A stretch of 37,146 nucleotides of DNA from Acidobacteriota bacterium (lineage in GTDB: Bacteria > Acidobacteriota > Vicinamibacteria > Vicinamibacterales > UBA2999). Location: NCBI GenBank assembly GCA_016210845.1, contig JACQTK010000275.1, positions 1 to 37,146 of the forward strand, written 5' to 3'. Shown here one piece after another: positions 24,780 through 35,824 of the stretch; within the stretch, counting starts at the first letter, position 1; every line of letters begins with the position of its first letter. The notes below the pieces were generated by a model, which was not told where the DNA came from, did not search any database, and saw only the letters and a program-made list of their open reading frames with translations. A program made the position numbers and the translations under genes.

Positions 24780-25697
24780 CTACTCCCGCCCCTTCATCAA
24801 CTCCGCCCGCCAGCGGCCCGCCTCGTCGAAGAGCGTTTCGATCGCCTCCTCGCGCCGCAGGTGCTGGCGGATCTCCGTCAGCCGCGCGATGAGGCGATCG
24901 AGCGCGGCCTCGATCGCATCCGGATTGGTGGCGCAGATGTCCTTCCACACGCTGGCCGGGCTCGAGGCGAGACGCGTCGTGTCGAGGAGGCCCTGGCCCG
25001 CGAGCGACAAGCCGTTGGCGGCGGCGACGCTCCCGATCACCTCCATCAGGGCGCTGGCCGTGAGCTGCGGCAGATGGCTCACGAAGGCCATGAGGCGATC
25101 GTGATCGGCCGCGGTCATCGTCGTGGGCCTGGCCCCAAGGCCCGTCACGAACCGCGACAGCCGGTCCAGCGCATCCGAGGTCGCGTCGCTCTCGGGCGTG
25201 AAGATCCACGGCCTGGCCACGAAGAGATCCGGCCGCGCAAACGCGAAGCCGCCCCGCTCCGCCCCAGCGAGGGGATGCCCCCCGACGAAGGACATCGGCG
25301 GCGGCAGCGCCCGCGCGGCGGCGACGATCTCCTGCTTCGTGCCGCCGACGTCGGTGACGACGCACGCGCGGCGAGACGTCTGTGCGATGTCCTGGCGGGC
25401 CGTCAAGGCCCGCCCTACACCCTGAAAGGTCCGCCCGACGTCTTGGAGGAGCTGGATGTTCTGGCGCACGGGCGCGGCCAGCACGATCAGATCGACGCCG
25501 GAGAGCGAGGCCACGTCCTCGCACACGCGGTCGACCGCCCCGCTGCCGATCGCGTGCGCCAGCACGGCGGCGCGATCGACGGCGGTGACGCGGGAGGCGG
25601 GCCAGCGCTCGCGCACGCCCAGGGCAATCGACCCGCCGATCAGCCCCAGGCCGATAATGGCGACGGACGAAAACGGAGGCTCAGAAGGAGCCGACAT
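24780..25697 (-). CDS. tyrA: prephenate dehydrogenase
   Basis: SSVAIIGLGLIGGSIALGVRERWP, VVTDVGGTKQEI, SFVGGHPLAGAERGG. Confidence 0.93.
   Translation of the reverse strand: MSAPSEPPFSSVAIIGLGLIGGSIALGVRERWPASRVTAVDRAAVLAHAIGSGAVDRVCEDVASLSGVDLIVLAAPVRQNIQLLQDVGRTFQGVGRALTARQDIAQTSRRACVVTDVGGTKQEIVAAARALPPPMSFVGGHPLAGAERGGFAFARPDLFVARPWIFTPESDATSDALDRLSRFVTGLGARPTTMTAADHDRLMAFVSHLPQLTASALMEVIGSVAAANGLSLAGQGLLDTTRLASSPASVWKDICATNPDAIEAALDRLIARLTEIRQHLRREEAIETLFDEAGRWRAELMKGRE
25394..25418 (-). repeat. REP-like palindrome inside tyrA
   Basis: GGCGGGCC-GTCAA-GGCCCGCC-CTAC; minus strand GTAG-GGCGGGCC-TTGAC-GGCCCGCC. Confidence 0.85.
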
Positions 25698-25916: not shown

Positions 25917-26963
25917 TCATCTCGCCCATCCGCGCCGCGCCACCGGCTCGAGGCAGATGCTGCGCCCGATCGCGGGCGCGATGATCCGCAGCTCCGCCAT
26001 CAGCCGATCGAACTGCGACGGGAACATGGACTGCGCGCCGTCGCTGAGCGCGTGATCGGGATCGTGGTGCACCTCGATCAGCAGGCCGTCCGCGCCCACG
26101 GCGACGGCGGCGCGCGCGAGCTGCGCCACCATGTCGCGTCGGCCGGCCCCATGGCTCGGGTCCGCGATGATCGGCAGATGGCTCAGCTTCTTCACCACCG
26201 GGACGGCCGAGATGTCGAACGTGTTGCGCGTGGCCGTCTCGAACGTCCGGATGCCGCGCTCGCAGAGGATGACCTCGTTGTTCCCCCCCGACAGGATGTA
26301 CTCCGCCGAGAGCAGCCACTCCTCGATCGTCGCCGAGATCCCGCGCTTGAGCAGCACGGGCTTGCGCGCGTGCCCCAGCTCGCGCAGCAGCGTGAAGTTC
26401 TGCATGTTGCGCGCGCCCACCTGGAAGATGTCGCAGTACTGGTCGATGAGCGGAATCTGGCTGACGTCCATCACCTCGGAGATCAGCTTGAGGTTGTGGG
26501 CGTCGGCCGCCCGCCGCAGCATCTGCAGCCCGTGCTCCCCGAGCCCCTGGAAGCTGTACGGCGAGCTGCGCGGCTTGAAGGCGCCGCCCCGCAGCACCTT
26601 GGCGCCCGCGCGCTTGACGGCGGCGGCCGAGGCCTGGCACTGCTCCTCGGTCTCCGCCGAGCACGGCCCGGCCATGACGATCACCTCGTCGCCGCCTATC
26701 CGCACGTCGTCGATCGTGACGACCGTGTCCTCGGGGCGGTAGCTGCGGCTGGCCCGCTTGTAGGGCGCGGAGATGCGCAGCACCTCGTGGACGCCGTCGA
26801 GCAGCTCGATCATCTCCTTGTCCACCTTGCCGTCGCCCACGACACCAAGGACCGTGCGGGTGGCGCCCGACGATCGATGCACGTCCATGCCCAGCTCGAT
26901 GAGGCGCGCGATCACCGCATCGATCTGCGCCTCGGTGGCCCGTTCTTTCATCACAACGACCAT
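25917..26963 (-). CDS. aroF: 3-deoxy-7-phosphoheptulonate synthase (DAHP synthase)
   Basis: [49 protein letters not shown]. Confidence 0.95.
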
Positions 26964-26981: not shown

Positions 26982-27041
26982 GGCGGACCTAAAGGTCCGC
27001 CTCTACGACCCGTTGGCGGAAAGGTCCGCCTCTACGACCCG
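26982..27041. repeat. REP-like palindrome plus partial tandem copy
   Basis: GGCGGACCT-AA-AGGTCCGCC-TCTAC at 26982-27005; AAAGGTCCGCCTCTACGACCCG repeated at 27020-27041 (29-bp period). Confidence 0.88.
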
Positions 27042-27355
27042 GCGACCGATGGACCGAGTCCACCTCCACGCACACTGGCGGCGCGCTCGGCGCGCCGCGC
27101 TTCGTCGATGATCCGCTCGAAGATCCGCACCACGGCTTCGGCGTTCAGCGGTCCCGCCAGCTCGGTGGCCGCCTTCCGCACGCCCGCCAGCACCGCGGCT
27201 TCCCGCTCCGGCTGATAGATCGGCAGGCCCGCTTCGTGCTTCAGCCGACCCACCTCCACTGCACACGCCACGCGCACGTTGAGGAGACGCACGAGCTGCT
27301 CGTCGATGATGTCGATCCGGCTGCGCAGCTCTTCGATGGTCAGGACTTCAGCCAC
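27032..27355 (-). CDS. chorismate mutase (AroQ class)
   Basis: IEELRSRIDIIDEQLVRLLNVRVACAVEVGRLKHEAGLPIYQPEREAAVLAGV; GTG start inferred. Confidence 0.9.
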   Translation of the reverse strand: MAEVLTIEELRSRIDIIDEQLVRLLNVRVACAVEVGRLKHEAGLPIYQPEREAAVLAGVRKAATELAGPLNAEAVVRIFERIIDEARRAERAASVRGGGLGPSVAGS

Positions 27356-28170
27356 CGCACATACTCCTCCACCCGTGTCGTGAGATCGTGTGACGAACCG
27401 GCTTCGGCGATCACGCCGACGAGCGCACTGCCGACGACGGCGGCGTCGGCCCACCGCCCTACCTCGCGCACGTGCTCCGGCTTCGAGATGCCAAACCCGA
27501 GGGCGACGGGCAATGAGCTGACGGCGCGGATCCTCCGGACCATCTCCTGGGCGCCATCAGCGATCCGATCGCGGGCGCCCGTGACTCCAAGCCGCGAAAT
27601 CGCGTAGAGAAAGCCGCTCCCCAGGGAGGCCGCCTTGCGGAGCCGCTCGTCGGTCGTCGTCGGACTGAGCAGCAGAATTGTATCAATCCCCCGTGACGCC
27701 AGCAGCGTCCGGAACTCCCCTGCTTCCTCGATCGGAAGATCCAGCACCAGGACGCCGTCCACCCCCGCGTCCCGCGCTCGATCGGCGAACCGCTCTGCTC
27801 CGAGACGCAGGATCGGGTTGGCGTAGCTGAAGACGACGACCGGCGGGAGACCCGCACGCAGATCGGCTACGAGGTCGAGCACGGCAGCCAGCGTGGTGCC
27901 GGATGCCAGCGCGCGCTCGGTGGCTCGCTGGATGACCGGGCCATCCGCGAGCGGATCCGAGAAAGGCACGCCCACTTCCAGCACGTCCGCGCCGCCGCGG
28001 CCGAGCGCCTGCAGGATGCCCCCGGTCCGGTCGAGGTCCGGATCGCCCGCCGTGACGTACGTCACGAGGCCAGGACGACCATCCTTGCGCAGTCGCGCAA
28101 ACGTCTCCGCGAGGCGGCCCTCGGTGCGGAGACGGGCTTGGGCGCCGGAGCCTTGGCGAAGGCGGCTCAT
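27340..28170 (-). CDS. trpA: tryptophan synthase alpha subunit
   Basis: [41 protein letters not shown] overlap with trpB. Confidence 0.95.
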
Positions 28171-29420
28171 CGAAGAGCCTCCATCACGCTCTGCACGTCC
28201 TTGTCGCCGCGACCGGACAGATTGATCAGGATGATGGTGCCCTCGTCGACGTCGCGTGCCAGCTGCATCGTGTACGCGACCGCATGTGCGGACTCGAGCG
28301 CGGGAAGGATGCCTTCGAGCCGCGCCAGCGCTTGGAAGCCCCCGAGCGCTTCGGCGTCCGAGACGTGGGCGTACTCCGTGCGGCCGAGGTCGCGCAGCCA
28401 CGCGTGCTCCGGACCGACGGCGGCGTAGTCGAGCCCCGCCGAGATCGAGTGCGTGAGCTCGATGTTGCCAGCCTCGTCCTGGAGCACGAACGTTCGAGTC
28501 CCCTGCAGCACGCCCGTGCTGCCTCCGGCAAATCGCGCGGCGTGGCGGCCCGGAGCAATCCGCTCGCCCCCGGCCTCCACGCCGACGAGCCGCACGCCCG
28601 CGTCGTCCATGAACCCGTCGAAGATGCCCATGGCGTTGCTGCCGCCGCCGACGCACGCGACGACGACGTCCGGCAGGCGGCTCACCTGATCGAGCATCTG
28701 GCGCCGCGCCTCGCGGCCGATCACCGACTGGAACTCGCGGACCATCAGCGGGTAGGGATGCGGACCGAGCGCGGAGCCGAGCAGGTAGTACGTATCGGTG
28801 ACGTTGGCCACCCAGTCGCGCATCGCCTCGTTGATCGCGTCCTTGAGCGTGCGGCTGCCCGCATCCACGCGCCGCACCGTTGCCCCGAGCAGCTCCATTC
28901 GGACGACGTTGAGCGCCTGGCGGCGCATGTCTTCGGCGCCCATGTAGACGTGGCACTCGAGGCCGAGCAGCGCGCAGGCGGTGGCGGTGGCAACGCCGTG
29001 CTGGCCGGCGCCGGTCTCCGCCACCACGCGGCGCTTGCCCATCCGCCTGGCGAGCAGGGCCTGGCCGAGCGCGTTGTTGATCTTGTGCGCGCCAGTGTGC
29101 GTGAGGTCTTCCCGCTTCAGAAGGATTCGCACCCCCTTCGCCTTACCCGCCTCCTCCGCCAGCCGTCTCGCCTCATAGAGCGGCGTTGGCCTGCCGACGT
29201 AGTGGGTCAGGAGCCGTTCGAGCTCGTCGCGAAACGCGGCATCCGCGCGTGCCGCGAAATAGCCGGCCGCCAGCTCCTCGATCGGGGCCACGAGCGTCTC
29301 GGGCACGAAGCGCCCGCCGTATGGGCCGAAATAGCCCCGCGCGTCCGGGTCACGGCGTCCAAACAGCGGACGCTCAGGCTCCGTTGGGTTCACGACATCC
29401 ACTCGCTTCACGTCCGTCAC
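28167..29420 (-). CDS. trpB: tryptophan synthase beta subunit
   Basis: [53 protein letters not shown] overlap with trpF. Confidence 0.97.
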
Positions 29421-30031
29421 AGCTCCAATGCCTCGCGCGCCGCGGTCAGAAAGCGCGCTACCTTGTCGGGATCCTTTACGCCCGGCGTCTCCTCGACGCC
29501 TGAGGATACGTCCACGCCAAAGGGCCGCACCGCGGCCACGGCGTCGGCCACGTTGGCCGCCGTGAGCCCTCCTGCCAGCACCACGCGCCAGCCGCGCGCC
29601 ACCTCGGCCGCGCGCGGCCAATCCCCCGTCAGTCCCGTCCCTCCGCGTCGAACCGGGTCGGGGGTGTCCAGGAGGAACGTCGTCGCGGCCGGCCATGCCG
29701 CGCACGTTCGCTCCGCCTGGTCCACGCTCACTGCGCGCAGCACCGGACACGCCAGCGCCGCCGCGTAGGAAGGCGGCTCGTCGCCGTGGAGCTGTACGGA
29801 TCCGATGCCGCTTCGTCCCATCACGGCGCAAATCCCTTCGAGTGACTCGTTCACGAACACCCCGACCGCCTGCACGTGCGATGGCAGCGCGGAGACGATG
29901 CCTGCTGCACGTTCCGGCGCGACGTATCTGGGGCTCCGCGGCCAGAAGACGAACCCCAGCGCCGTGGCGCCGTGCTCGACCGCCCACAACGCGTCGCCCA
30001 GCCGCGTGATGCCGCAGACTTTGATGAACAT
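29417..30031 (-). CDS. trpF: phosphoribosylanthranilate isomerase
   Basis: [37 protein letters not shown]. Confidence 0.95.
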
Positions 30032-30038
30032 GCGCTCT

Positions 30039-30098
30039 CCCGTGGGGCGAGCCTTGTCAGGCTCGCCATCGCGGACCTGACAAGGTCCGCGCCACGGG
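30039..30098. repeat. nested three-stem palindrome (paired REP-like hairpins in a closing stem)
   Basis: CCCGTGG [GGCGAGCCT TGTC AGGCTCGCC] ATC [GCGGACCT GACA AGGTCCGC] G CCACGGG. Confidence 0.9.
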
Positions 30099-30890
30099 CC
30101 CCTCAATCAACTCGGCGATCGCACGCGCCGGGTCCGGATCGGTCATGAACCGTTCTCCGATCAGGAACGCCCGGTACCCCGCTGCGGCGAGCCGCTCGAG
30201 ATCCGCGCGCGTCTGCAGCCCGCTCTCGCTGACGGAGATGATGCCGCGGGGGATCTTCGGCGCCAGGCGATACGACCCCTCCACGTCCACCTGCAGCGTC
30301 CTGAGGTTCCGGTTGTTCACGCCCACCACGCGCGCGCCGCAATCCACGGCCCGCGCCAGCTCGCCTTCGTCGTGGACCTCGACCAGCGCCGCGAGCCCGA
30401 GATCCCATGCCCGTGCCTGCAGCCGCGACAGCTCGGCCTGCTCCAGCGCGGCCACGATCAGCAGCACCGCATCGGCCCCCGCCGCGCGCGCCTCCAGCAG
30501 CTGATAGTCGTCGACGATGAAGTCCTTGCGGAGCAGCGGAAGCGCCACCTGCCGCCGGACGGCGGCCAGATGCTCCGGCGCGCCATCGAAGAACGTCGGC
30601 TCGGTCAGCACGGAGATCGCCGCCGCCCCACCAGCCTCGTACCGCCGCGCGATGGCTGCGGGGTCGTACTCAGCCGTCAGGACCCCTCTGGACGGCGAGC
30701 GGCGCTTGCACTCCGCGATGACGTTCGCGCGCCCCGCCGCGCCGAGCGCCGCCTCGAATCGGGGTCCGTCCGGCGCCATGGCCAGCGCGCGCCGCTCCAA
30801 TGCCGCCATCGGCTCGCGCTCCCGCCGTACGTCGGTGATGCGCCGCGTGGCGGCGACAATCGTTCGCAGCAGGTCGGGCGCCGCCCTCAC
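30057..30890 (-). CDS. trpC: indole-3-glycerol-phosphate synthase
   Basis: VIAECKRRSPSRG, LLRKDFIVDDYQL, VGVNNRNLRTLQVD, SVSESGLQ; GTGA overlap with trpD. Confidence 0.96.
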   Translation of the reverse strand: MRAAPDLLRTIVAATRRITDVRREREPMAALERRALAMAPDGPRFEAALGAAGRANVIAECKRRSPSRGVLTAEYDPAAIARRYEAGGAAAISVLTEPTFFDGAPEHLAAVRRQVALPLLRKDFIVDDYQLLEARAAGADAVLLIVAALEQAELSRLQARAWDLGLAALVEVHDEGELARAVDCGARVVGVNNRNLRTLQVDVEGSYRLAPKIPRGIISVSESGLQTRADLERLAAAGYRAFLIGERFMTDPDPARAIAELIEGPVARTLSGPRWRA

Positions 30891-31929
30891 ACCCCCTCCC
30901 TGCCCTGAGCTGCGTCGAAGGGCGCGTGTGAGGCGCGCGCCATGGTATCGAGCGTCGTGCGCGCCGCGCCGGAGTCGATGGCCAGCGCCGCGCGATCGAT
31001 GCCCTCGCGGACCGTCGCGGCCGCTCCGGCCGCGAACAGCGCGGCACCCGCGTTCAGCAGCACGACATCACGCTGCGGGCCGCGTGCTCCACCGAGCACC
31101 TCCCGAACGATCGCCGCGTTGGCCGGCGCGTCGCCGCCCTTCAAATCGGCGGCCGACGCCTTTGCAATGCCGAAGTCCGCGGGGTGCACGTAGAACGTGT
31201 TGACGGCTCCACCCCGACACTCCGAGACCTTCGTGTGGCCGGTCGTCGAGATCTCGTCGATGCCGTCCGCGCCGTGCACGACCCACGCGCGATCGGAGCC
31301 GAGCATGAGAAGCGCGCGGGCGAGCAGCTCGGTGAGCTCCGGCCGCGGTACACCCACGATCTGCCGCCGTGCGCCGGCCGGATTCGTCAACGGTCCGAGC
31401 AGGTTGAACGCCGTCCGGATGCCGAGCTCGCGGCGCGTCTGCGCGGCGTGCTTCATCGAGGGATGGAACGTCGGCGCGAAGAAGAACGCGATGTCGGCGG
31501 CGCGCAGCGTCCGCTCGACCGCCTCTGGCGCGGCGGCCACGTTGACGCCGAGCTGCTCGAAGACGTCCGCGCTGCCGCACCGGCTCGACACGGACCGGTT
31601 GCCGTGTTTGGCCACCCTGACGCCACAGGCCGCCACCACGACCGCCGCCGCCGACGAGATGTTGAACGTCCCTGACCGATCGCCGCCGGTGCCACACGTA
31701 TCGAACACGTCGCCGGCCGGCGCGGACAGCGTCACCGCCTGCTCGCGCATCGTTCGCGCGAAGCCCACGATTTCCGCAGGCCGCTCCCCTTTCATGACGA
31801 GCGCCGCCAGCAGCGCAGCCAGCGACGCCGCGGGCGCGCGTCCCGCCATGACCTCGCGCATCGCGGCCGCGGCCTCGCTCTCGGTGAGGTCCTCGCGCCG
31901 AACCAGCTTCTCGAGCAGCTCGGTGAACA

Positions 31930-31930
<1 letters not shown>
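30887..31930 (-). CDS. trpD: anthranilate phosphoribosyltransferase
   Basis: DTCGTGGDRSGTFNISSA, KHGNRSVSSRCGSADVFEQLG; TGATG overlap with trpG. Confidence 0.96.
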
Positions 31931-32496
<566 letters not shown>

Positions 32497-32532: not shown

Positions 32533-33999
32533 TCACAACCCTCGTTGCGCCAGTTCCAGCGCCTGAATCACGCCGCGGGCCTTGTCGCGCGTCTCCTCGT
32601 ACTCCGCTGCGGGATTGGAATCGGCCACGATGCCCGCACCCGCCTGCACGTACGCGCGCCCGTTCTCGATGAGCACCGTGCGAATGGTGATGCAGAAATC
32701 CAGATTGCCCGCGAAGTCCAGGTACCCGACGGCGCCCGCGTAGACGCCCCGGCGGCGGTTCTCGAGCTCGGCGATGAGCTCCATGGCCCGCACCTTCGGC
32801 GCCCCCGACACGGTGCCCGCCGGAAAACACGCCACCAGCGCGTCGAGGCGGTCGTGCTCGTCCGACAGCCGGCCCTCGACGATCGACACGAGGTGCATGA
32901 CGTGCGAGTAGCGCTCGAGCGTCATGTACGTGGGCACCTTGACCGTTCCATATGCCGACACGCGTCCCAGATCGTTGCGCCCGAGATCGACGAGCATCAC
33001 GTGCTCGGCCCGCTCCTTCTCGTTGCGCTTCAGCTCCTCGGCCAGCCGCTGATCCTCCTCTTCGGTGCCGCCGCGCGGCCGCGTGCCCGCAATCGGATGG
33101 GTTTGGATGCGGTGGCCCTCCACCCGCACGAGCATCTCCGGCGACGATCCGACGATCGAGCGCCCGCCCATGCGGATGAAGTACATGTAGGGCGACGGGT
33201 TCACGTGCCGCAGCGCGCGGTAGGCGGTGAAGGGCTCGGCGGCAAACGGCGCCTCGAACCGCTGCGACAGCACTACCTGATAGACGTCTCCGGCGGCGAT
33301 GTACTCCTTGGCCGCCCGGACCATCCGCTCGAACTCTTCACGCGTGACGTTCGACGTGATGTCGATCGGCTGGCCGTCGACGGGCACTGCCTTCGAGAGC
33401 GCACGCTCGAGCTCCCGCTCGACGAACTCGATCTTGGCCCGCGCGAACTGATACAGCGATTCGAGATCCTCGTCCCCCGAGATCCTCGCGTTGGCGACGA
33501 TGAGGATGCGGTGGCGCACGTGGTCGAAGGCGAGCACGGTGTCGAACAGCATGAATCCCGCCTCGTCCTCGTCGGTGTGGGCTGGCTGCAGCGTCACCGG
33601 CTCGAACCACGCGGCGGCGTCGTACCCCAGGTATCCCACGGCTCCTCCGGTGAATCGGGGCAGCCCGGGCACGAACGGCGAATGAAATCCGGCCATCAGC
33701 TCTCGCAGCGTGGCGATGAACGGCCTGTCGGAGGTCGAGGTCTCGCCCGCCCGTTCGACGATCGTCCTGCCGCCGCGCGAGCGCAGGATGAGAAACGGAT
33801 CCTTGCCGAGGAACGAGTAGCGTCCCACCTGCTCGCCGCCCTCCACCGACTCGAGCAGGAACGCGTAGTCCGAGTGCTCGGCGATCTTCAGGAAGGCCGA
33901 CACGGGCGTCAGCAGGTCCGCGACGATCTCCTTGTAGACCGGCACGAACGTCCCGCGCTGGGCCAGCTCCCGAAACTGCTCGAACGTCGTGATATGCAT
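32533..33999 (-). CDS. trpE: anthranilate synthase component I
   Basis: VGRYSFLGKDPF, SPSPYMYFIRMGGRSIVGSSPEMLVRVEG, PIAGTRPRGGTEEED, FPAGTVSGAPKVRAMELI. Confidence 0.96.
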   Translation of the reverse strand: MHITTFEQFRELAQRGTFVPVYKEIVADLLTPVSAFLKIAEHSDYAFLLESVEGGEQVGRYSFLGKDPFLILRSRGGRTIVERAGETSTSDRPFIATLRELMAGFHSPFVPGLPRFTGGAVGYLGYDAAAWFEPVTLQPAHTDEDEAGFMLFDTVLAFDHVRHRILIVANARISGDEDLESLYQFARAKIEFVERELERALSKAVPVDGQPIDITSNVTREEFERMVRAAKEYIAAGDVYQVVLSQRFEAPFAAEPFTAYRALRHVNPSPYMYFIRMGGRSIVGSSPEMLVRVEGHRIQTHPIAGTRPRGGTEEEDQRLAEELKRNEKERAEHVMLVDLGRNDLGRVSAYGTVKVPTYMTLERYSHVMHLVSIVEGRLSDEHDRLDALVACFPAGTVSGAPKVRAMELIAELENRRRGVYAGAVGYLDFAGNLDFCITIRTVLIENGRAYVQAGAGIVADSNPAAEYEETRDKARGVIQALELAQRGL

Positions 34000-34023
34000 T
34001 GATCTTCGGTCGGCGCACGTGAC

Positions 34024-34098
34024 GCGCACGCTGAAGCGTGCGCTCTACCTCGCGCCGTGGTCCCCCATGTTCTGTAGAGCGGGGGCTTCAGCCCCCGC
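34024..34098. repeat. pair of inverted REP-like palindromes (BIME-like)
   Basis: GCGCACGCT-GA-AGCGTGCGC-TCTAC (34024-34048) and GTAGA-GCGGGGGCT-TC-AGCCCCCGC (34074-34098). Confidence 0.9.
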
Positions 34099-35607
34099 GG
34101 CCCCCGTCTCAGCGGTCTCCGCGAGGGCCCGCTGCGCCGCCTCGCGCATCACACCCGACGGCGCACGCTGTCCCGTCCACCACGCAAACTGCCGCTCTGC
34201 CTGCGCGACGAGCATCGGCAGCCCATCGAGCGTCGCGCATCCCGCCTCGCCCGCCTCGCGGAGAAGCCGCGACCTGCCGATGCCATAGGTCAGGTCGTAC
34301 ACGAGCCGACCGTCGAACCGCCCCCCCGGCAGCGGCGACTCGTCCCGCGCCGCGGCGCCTCCAAGCGGCGTGCAGTTCACGAGCAGATCCCATGAGCCTG
34401 CGGCCGGGGGCCAGGCTGCGGCCCGAACGGTCTGTCCGTTCCGGCTCAAGTCGGACGCCATCACGCGCGCCTGGTGCTCGCGCCTGGCATGGACGGTGAC
34501 CGTGGCGCCGCGCGACGCGAGCGCCGCGACGACCGCCCGTGCCGCGCCGCCCGCGCCGAGGACCGCCGCGCGCAGGCCGGAATGGAGGGACAGGACCTCG
34601 TCGAGCGGCTCGAGAAACCCGTCGACGTCGGTGTTCGTCGCTTCCCAGTTGGGGCCCGGCAGCGCCGTGTCCGTACGAGCCACGCGCCTGAGGGTATTGG
34701 CGGCTCCCACCGCGCGTGCCAGCTCGTCGGCCGCCACCGCCGCCTTCAGGGCGTCGAGCTTGTAGGGAATCGTCACGCTGGCGCCCACGATCCCCAACGC
34801 ATCCGCGAACGCGAGGAAGTCCCCAAAGTCCGCGGCGCGCAGCGGGACATAGACGGCGTCGACGCCAGAGGCGGCGAACGCCGCGTTGTGCATCGCCGGC
34901 GAGATCGAATGCGTCGCGGTGGCGCCCACGACGCCGTAGACGGCCGTCCTCGGACCGGTGTGTCGAAAACGAAACTGCTCCAGCATGCACCGCGCGGACA
35001 GTTGGCCGGGCGCCACCCCGTTGCCTGCATAGGTCCAGGGCGACCCGAACCGCGACGCGAGCACGCGGCTGGCGACGCCAGCTTCCCCCATCCCAATCAC
35101 CACGGCATTCCCACCACGAGCGACCTCGAGCAGCGGCAGCATGTCGGTCAGACGCGAGGCGGTGACCGCGACTTTGATCACGGGAGCGCCCGTGCCGCGC
35201 ATGGCGCGCACGCGGTCCGGCAGATCTGCCGGCACTCCAGAGAAGTCGTGCGACGAGACGAGGATCCGCCCTCGGTGCTGCCGGATCAGGCTGTGGAACG
35301 CGGAGCCTTCTGGAATCTGCCGGAGGGTCTGCCACTCGACGTCCACGTGCTCGGCTCCGAGCTCGAGCGCCCGGGCGAGGATGGCGTGCCGCTCCTCTTC
35401 GCTGCCTTCGAACCGTCCGCCCTCCCAGGCCGGACGGCACGTCACGATCACCGGCCGGCGCCGCCCCGCCAGCGCGCGATCGACATCGAGATCGAGCACG
35501 CCATCGAGGCGCAGCTCGACCATATCGCCCATCGCCGCGTCGCGTGCCGCGACGAGCTCGGCCATCGTCGCGCCGGTCACCGTCTCGCACAGGAGCGAAG
35601 CTGCCAT
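34045..35607 (-). CDS. aroDE: bifunctional type I 3-dehydroquinate dehydratase / shikimate dehydrogenase
   Basis: MVELRLDGV, VIVTCRPAWEGG, VKVAVTASRLTDMLPLL region, then YGVVGATATHSISPAMHNAAF and AVLGAGGAARAVVAAL; ATG 35607 chosen over TTG 35628. Confidence 0.93.
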   Translation of the reverse strand: MAASLLCETVTGATMAELVAARDAAMGDMVELRLDGVLDLDVDRALAGRRRPVIVTCRPAWEGGRFEGSEEERHAILARALELGAEHVDVEWQTLRQIPEGSAFHSLIRQHRGRILVSSHDFSGVPADLPDRVRAMRGTGAPVIKVAVTASRLTDMLPLLEVARGGNAVVIGMGEAGVASRVLASRFGSPWTYAGNGVAPGQLSARCMLEQFRFRHTGPRTAVYGVVGATATHSISPAMHNAAFAASGVDAVYVPLRAADFGDFLAFADALGIVGASVTIPYKLDALKAAVAADELARAVGAANTLRRVARTDTALPGPNWEATNTDVDGFLEPLDEVLSLHSGLRAAVLGAGGAARAVVAALASRGATVTVHARREHQARVMASDLSRNGQTVRAAAWPPAAGSWDLLVNCTPLGGAAARDESPLPGGRFDGRLVYDLTYGIGRSRLLREAGEAGCATLDGLPMLVAQAERQFAWWTGQRAPSGVMREAAQRALAETAETGAAGAEAPALQNMGDHGAR

Positions 35608-35648
35608 AAAAGAAAAACGCCTCTTCAACCGGGTTGGCTGAAGAGGCG
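35608..35648 (-). terminator. intrinsic terminator (attenuator 3:4 hairpin)
   Basis: Minus strand CGCCTCTTCA-GCCAACCCGGT-TGAAGAGGCG followed by TTTTTCTTTT. Confidence 0.93.
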
Positions 35649-35702
35649 CGATGTCGGCTGAACTCGTTCTCGTGACGTCTTAGACGCTGGCCGCCCCTTC
35701 AG
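35638..35702 (-). promoter_or_regulatory. antiterminator (2:3) pairing region of the trp attenuator
   Basis: CTGAAGGGGCG (35702-35692) pairs with CGCCTCTTCAG (35648-35638): 11 bp with one G-U, mutually exclusive with the terminator. Confidence 0.85.
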
Positions 35703-35772
35703 TCGCAGTCCGATACCACCACCAGTAGCTGGCGTAGCTCGGCGCAACGGAGAAGGTAAAGGCGTGAGCCAT
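35680..35772 (-). CDS. trpL: trp operon leader peptide MAHAFTFSVAPSYASYWWWYRTATEGAASV
   Basis: Short ORF with tandem TGGTGGTGG (35716-35724) followed by TAT, between a promoter and the terminator, upstream of aroDE-trp genes. Confidence 0.93.
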   Translation of the reverse strand: MAHAFTFSVAPSYASYWWWYRTATEGAASV

Positions 35773-35794
35773 CAGCGAAAGAGACGAATGTCGC

Positions 35795-35824
35795 AGCGTA
35801 TCGCAGTCTCCGTGGGGCTGTCAA
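35795..35824 (-). promoter_or_regulatory. sigma70-like promoter for the leader
   Basis: TTGACA (35824-35819) - N18 - TACGCT (35800-35795), about 20 nt upstream of the leader ATG. Confidence 0.6.

Follow-up and report, generated by a model that had tools for sequence, protein, structure and literature searches.

How is transcription of the genes headed by aroDE controlled in this acidobacterium, and does the short Trp-rich reading frame ahead of aroDE take part in that control? In E. coli, the trpL leader combines tandem Trp codons, alternative 2:3 and 3:4 helices and a U-tract terminator to control the trp operon in cis. We analyzed a 37,146-nucleotide stretch (the window), which is contig 253 in the 4.18-Mb draft genome of an uncultured member of Acidobacteriota (order Vicinamibacterales), together with the corresponding regions of related genomes. 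Comparative and folding analyses indicate that the element upstream of aroDE is very probably a classical ribosome-mediated transcription attenuator responsive to Trp, a reading to which we assign a probability of about 0.93.

Leader and operon anatomy in the window

An earlier note on this DNA described a TTGACA-N18-TACGCT promoter, a 30-codon leader with a WWW motif, a terminator with a U-tract and an alternative 11-bp antiterminator with one G-U pair. All of these elements were recovered (Table 1). The promoter agrees base for base on the minus strand, and the leader can be read directly at 35772-35680. The terminator is a 14-bp 3:4 helix followed by TTTTTCTTTT, and the 2:3 helix that pairs CTGAAGGGGCG with CGCCTCTTCAG indeed has 11 bp including one G-U. 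The same note had segment 2 starting 13 nt past the final Trp codon, just before the leader stop, and the aroDE ATG straight after the U-tract. Segment 2 lies 13 nt past the last Trp codon and 9 nt ahead of the stop, and the ATG occupies 35607-35605, immediately 3' of the U-tract. The window leader RNA folds 4.3 SD below dinucleotide shuffles.

Table 1. Leader elements and operon genes located in the window.
Feature	Position	Strand	Remarks
-35 box TTGACA of the leader promoter	35819..35824	-	read directly from the sequence
-10 box TACGCT	35795..35800	-	18-nt spacer from the -35 box
Leader peptide ORF MAHAFTFSVAPSYASYWWWYRTATEGAASV, then stop	35680..35772	-	ATG..TAA, 30 codons; begins 22 nt past the -10 box, with no Shine-Dalgarno
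Sensing codons, three TGG (Trp), then TAT (Tyr)	35713..35724	-	Trp codons at 35724-35716
Segment 2 CTGAAGGGGCG, 5' half of the antiterminator	35692..35702	-	within the end of the leader ORF
Segment 3 CGCCTCTTCAG, common to antiterminator and terminator	35638..35648	-	changes jointly with segments 2 and 4
Intrinsic terminator hairpin 3:4, GCGCCTCTTCAGCC-AACCC-GGTTGAAGAGGCGT	35617..35649	-	14 bp; arms 35649-35636 and 35630-35617
U-tract TTTTTCTTTT	35608..35617	-	adjoins the aroDE start codon
aroDE, a fusion of type I 3-dehydroquinase and shikimate dehydrogenase; heads the operon	34045..35607	-	Pfam: DHquinase_I 1e-40, Shikimate_dh_N 1.4e-19
trpE, anthranilate synthase component I	32533..34029	-	Pfam
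trpG, glutamine amidotransferase	31930..32496	-	Pfam
trpD, anthranilate phosphoribosyltransferase	30887..31936	-	Pfam
trpC, indole-3-glycerol phosphate synthase	30057..30890	-	Pfam
trpF, phosphoribosylanthranilate isomerase	29417..30061	-	Pfam; approximate start
trpB	28167..29375	-	Pfam; approximate start
trpA	27340..28176	-	Pfam; approximate start
Chorismate mutase type II	27035..27355	-	Pfam: CM_2 1.6e-23
DAHP synthase (aroF)	25920..26963	-	Pfam
tyrA, prephenate dehydrogenase	24783..25697	-	Pfam

The genes aroDE, trpE, trpG, trpD, trpC, trpF, trpB and trpA follow the leader in close-packed order. The operon probably runs on into chorismate mutase and DAHP synthase (aroF), and tyrA is a possible operon end, with a 220-nt gap preceding its reading frame. 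Many relatives also carry a chorismate mutase domain approximately 8 kb downstream of aroDE. The extension towards tyrA was absent from the earlier note, as were the Tyr codons of the sensing zone, the near-leaderless start and the spread of such leaders across the phylum.

Conservation and covariation in Vicinamibacterales

An alignment search with aroDE returned 153 relatives, of which the best 80 were kept, and a single-protein search of contigs found nothing. In a set of 149 relatives, aroDE was found in 137. Within Vicinamibacterales, 128 aroDE upstream regions were usable, the window's own among them. At least two Trp codons stand near the leader end in 124 of these loci and a single one in the remaining four, and the Trp cluster consists of 2-4 W in all 119 loci analyzed. 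The GCCTCTTCAG-type terminator is kept in 127 of the 128 loci, with locus L115 having lost the 5' arm. The four single-Trp leaders and the defective terminator of L115 count against an attenuator, as do the unconserved 1:2 protector and the missing Shine-Dalgarno discussed below.

We used a strict detector that calls an ORF, a Trp pair and then a terminator; it was designed after viewing the loci and was left unchanged for the controls. Leader plus terminator were called at 103 of the 128 loci, whereas shuffled sequences gave a single call in 1280 and reverse complements none in 128. The leader and terminator anatomy in the window is far beyond chance. A covariance model of the element, run on 396 Acidobacteriota genomes, gave scores between 1e-11 and 1e-26 in nearly all of the Vicinamibacterales genomes listed and weak ones outside the order. 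The earlier note had proposed a covariance-model search and a comparison of relatives for a retained W-rich ORF and for compensatory changes in both helices. The counts and scores above bear out the first two expectations, and the third held as well, since both helices are retained with paired changes (see below). Given conservation in essentially the whole order, Vicinamibacterales very probably use a ribosome-stalling switch of the E. coli type.

Covariation was assessed on an alignment of 81 leaders. The 3:4 helix is 96% paired, with changes on both sides in 8 of 13 pairs and 71 both-side-changed cells, compared to 22.6 in shuffles and 6-14 in slid versions of the helix. The 2:3 helix is 87% paired, with both-side changes in six pairs and 48 such cells, compared to 19.1 in shuffles and 3-27 in slid versions. 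Two other measures of the 2:3 helix, the number of pairs (81/500) and of types (42/500), fell within the shuffle range, in part owing to the ability of a T in segment 3 to pair with both A and G. Every locus with a C in segment 3 at alignment column 142 carries G in both segment 2 and segment 4 (15/15), and the same holds for a C at column 144 (7/7) or column 145 (3/3). Judged from locus labels, these joint changes are spread over at least five families of the order. On the aligned sequences, this joint covariation of segment 3 with both partners is the telling covariation result. It brings out a mutually exclusive antiterminator that makes use of the terminator 5' arm.

A strong hairpin with a U-tract is common between genes, and the terminator might in principle act constitutively on an upstream transcript while the small ORF is unrelated. 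The covariation of segment 3 with a segment lying within the ORF argues against this, as do the fixed position of the Trp cluster relative to segment 2 and the conserved promoter that separates leader and terminator from the upstream genes. The probability of such a constitutive terminator is very small.

The segment 2 core sits in a different leader reading frame in 11 of the 103 loci that have the core. Its retention across reading frames implies conservation as RNA rather than as peptide. This bears on a further explanation, in which the peptide, or the attenuator RNA once released, works in trans. A precedent among trp leaders is the trans action reported for peTrpL of Sinorhizobium meliloti (PMC7298713). 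In Vicinamibacterales, leader N-termini vary freely between families, and conservation is confined to the Trp cluster and to segment 2, the latter as RNA, making a trans-acting product very improbable as the explanation of the element. Trans action could nevertheless coexist with attenuation.

The earlier note left the 1:2 protector hairpin unresolved. Such a hairpin does fold in the window, but across the 119 loci it is no better than in shuffles (mean z -0.16). As the protector is not conserved, the untranslated state may read through.

Modeled switching, initiation and putative sensing codons

Leader folding under a ribosome was modeled with a generic footprint, in which RNA becomes free to pair 13 nt downstream of the A-site codon's first base. 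For a ribosome whose A site holds the first Trp codon, segment 3 pairs for the most part with upstream RNA (2:3) in all 119 modeled loci; for one at the last Trp codon, this is the case in 105 of 119. With the ribosome at the stop, 2:3 pairing occurs in none of the 119, segment 2 being masked by construction. The modeled folding hence agrees with the earlier proposal that a ribosome stalled on Trp codons would free segment 2 and one at the stop would cover it. In the full-length RNA, 3:4 is more stable than the alternative fold. Antitermination must therefore be kinetic, as in E. coli.

We infer the transcription start, the coupling to a ribosome and the response of the leader to Trp-tRNA. RNA polymerase would initiate just upstream of the leader ORF, with a ribosome coming behind. 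If charged tRNA-Trp is scarce, the ribosome would stall at the Trp cluster and segment 2 would stay free. Segments 2 and 3 could then pair ahead of the synthesis of segment 4, preventing the terminator, and aroDE-trpEGDCFBA would be transcribed, probably along with chorismate mutase-aroF-tyrA. If Trp is plentiful, the ribosome would reach the stop codon and cover segment 2, so that 3:4 forms and transcription would stop in the U-tract just before the aroDE ATG.

The promoter ahead of the leader is itself conserved. A TTGACN and TAnnnT pair at 17-18 nt spacing scores 10 or more in 104 of the 119 loci, compared to 6% of shuffles. The leader starts mostly 8-16 nt past the -10 box in the relatives and 22 nt past it in the window. 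If transcription begins approximately 7 nt downstream of the -10 box, the start codons of many leaders would sit almost at the 5' end of the RNA, a nearly leaderless arrangement. Shine-Dalgarno matches ahead of the leader start averaged 2.65, against 3.12 in shuffles, and a Shine-Dalgarno at this place was therefore rejected. These spacings suggest near-leaderless leader mRNAs in Vicinamibacterales. As the leader starts have no Shine-Dalgarno, translation of the leader would depend on near-leaderless initiation.

The only Shine-Dalgarno-like site near aroDE, GAAGAGG, lies within a terminator arm (window 35605-35630). With the ATG adjoining the U-tract, read-through and aroDE translation may be coupled. 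The arrangement also raises the question of translational control, with the hairpin hiding the aroDE ribosome site and leader translation opening the hairpin or feeding reinitiation. GAAGAGG is the sole purine-rich site upstream in the window, located in the 3' arm 12 nt ahead of the ATG, and a comparably short distance between U-tract and ATG is found in many relatives. However, the U-tract is always kept while the distance from terminator to aroDE varies from -1 to 103 nt, and the covariation fits a terminator/antiterminator pair. Translational control is thus an unlikely explanation by a wide measure, and transcription attenuation remains our preferred reading.

Tyr codons accompany the Trp cluster. 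Of the residues in or adjoining the cluster, 37% are Tyr, compared to 2% in the remainder of the leader, and a Tyr codon is in or beside the cluster in 100 of 119 loci. The cluster-zone Tyr codons are TAT rather than TAC at 65:27, compared to 26:109 in aroDE of 19 loci (Fisher p = 6e-15, with a lower true significance because the loci are related). The attenuator might answer Tyr as well as Trp, which would extend the Trp-responsive reading without excluding it. The enrichment and TAT bias are consistent with such a composite aromatic sensor, YYWW-type leaders recur ahead of trpE in other classes, and chorismate mutase, aroF and tyrA lie downstream in the same orientation. Since the operon carries Tyr-branch and shared genes, sensing of both amino acids is plausible. 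Yet the sequences are related rather than independent, RNA constraints could favor TAT, and the AroR leader of Corynebacterium (Phe-Tyr-Phe) answers Phe and not Tyr (PMC11802643). We regard sensing of Tyr as a tentative proposal with somewhat less than even odds.

Related leaders in the phylum and known systems

Genomes of the sister order, G210 and G448 among them, have aroDE at the head of the gene order aroDE-thiF-hisZ-hisG-hisD-hisC-hisH-hisA-hisF-trpE-trpGD, as assembled from two genomes. The terminator retains the CCTCTTCAGG core, and the leaders end in RWRPVFRHHRYHP, ERWRPTFHHHRHYD, VWRGSVHHHRHHS and similar, each directly before the stop; HHHRHY also occurs. His-rich leaders with Trp, often with Tyr or Phe, were seen at L262-L264, L267, L269, L270, L272-L274, L381 (G210:C6:12500-25400) and L382. 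Judging from these sequences, the sister-order leader is a possible dual His/Trp attenuator. The leader codons become His and Trp where his genes are co-operonic, as a sensing role predicts. Taken together, a near-leaderless WWWY/WWYW leader might sense Trp and Tyr and set an aroDE-trp-chorismate mutase-DAHP synthase-tyrA supraoperon, with the same cis element re-coded in the sister order to a His/Trp sensor where his genes are co-operonic. This wider picture is slightly more doubtful than Tyr sensing by itself.

Other parts of the phylum contain leaders of several kinds. Of 60 regions scanned there with the strict detector, 18 have a leader and a terminator ahead of trpE, compared to 0 of 600 shuffles, and weak covariance-model matches elsewhere in the phylum include leaders for other amino acids. 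Matches at L165, L167, L171, L173 and L178-L181 reflected likeness of the terminator hairpin only and were set aside. In other lineages of Acidobacteriota, WWW leaders with terminators precede a TrpB-like gene that has a long N-terminus and is probably TrpB2 (L162, L163, L164), and a WWWW leader precedes trpE at L174. Trp-rich leaders, many of them YYWW or YWWY, precede trpE with terminators in many other acidobacterial families (L312, L319, L323-L325, L329, L330, L333-L337, L339-L341, L343-L347), and the terminator sequences at these L312-L347 loci are unlike the window's. The Trp-rich ORFs AYYWWCPRPLLHA and TYSWWRASRPALRS stand before trpE with no evident U-tract terminator (L309, L310, L313), possibly representing another control mode. 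At L166 and L351-L354, in members of the family to which the window belongs, pheA (chorismate mutase-prephenate dehydratase) is preceded by Phe-rich leaders with GC-rich terminators. A ILLLLVLVLVLV leader precedes an ilvE-like aminotransferase (L169, L170, L172), an HHHHH leader hisG (L176) and an HHH leader a hisZ-like gene (L177).

An attenuator is documented across essentially the whole order, and several further acidobacterial lineages have versions for Trp, Phe, His or branched-chain amino acids. The pair formed by Vicinamibacterales and the sister order, with WWW versus His/Trp leaders on the same terminator core, represents a natural experiment in which leader codons track operon content. 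For these abundant soil bacteria, which are hard to grow, the element also puts a name to a regulatory input into aromatic amino-acid synthesis, one that can be tested.

Like E. coli trpL (RF00513 Trp_leader), the acidobacterial element has a short leader ORF with tandem Trp codons, 2:3 and 3:4 helices and a U-tract terminator. Unlike trpL, its leader has Tyr beside Trp, no Shine-Dalgarno and no conserved 1:2 hairpin, and its operon begins with aroDE, whose start codon abuts the U-tract. No Rfam family, including T-box and RF00513, matched the window at gathering score; RF00513 had no match at E up to 1 in the Vicinamibacterales loci L002, L004, L014, L025 and L116, and nine loci other than the window gave sub-threshold Rfam matches only. 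Control of the TRAP type, which would involve a run of spaced G/UAG triplets, is not needed to explain an element that has a Trp leader ORF. The HHHHH leader before hisG resembles Rfam His_leader RF00514 below threshold (29.1 bits, cut-off 49), a likeness that is not significant and concerns another acidobacterial genome and another amino acid.

PMC4833913 was rejected as a prior acidobacterial description because Acidobacteria appear there only for leader-gene distances, and PMC8528874 was rejected as a precedent because it concerns a TAT leader peptide. We found no description of an acidobacterial leader-peptide attenuator in the open-licence papers searched, nor in Rfam, in answer to the literature check that the earlier note had called for. 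Actinobacteria (Corynebacterium, Streptomyces) have predicted and studied trp attenuators, likewise with a double or triple UGG leader, a GC-rich terminator and an antiterminator (PMC1262725). Those belong to another phylum and apparently have another conserved RNA core (here GCCTCTTCAG in segment 3). The C. glutamicum AroR leader before aroF likewise uses aromatic codons to attenuate a DAHP synthase gene but, unlike the acidobacterial leader, has no Trp codons and senses Phe rather than Tyr (PMC11802643). The mechanism seems to be the same as in the known systems and seems new in Acidobacteriota as far as the search reached, and its Tyr codons could make the acidobacterial trp attenuator a variant.
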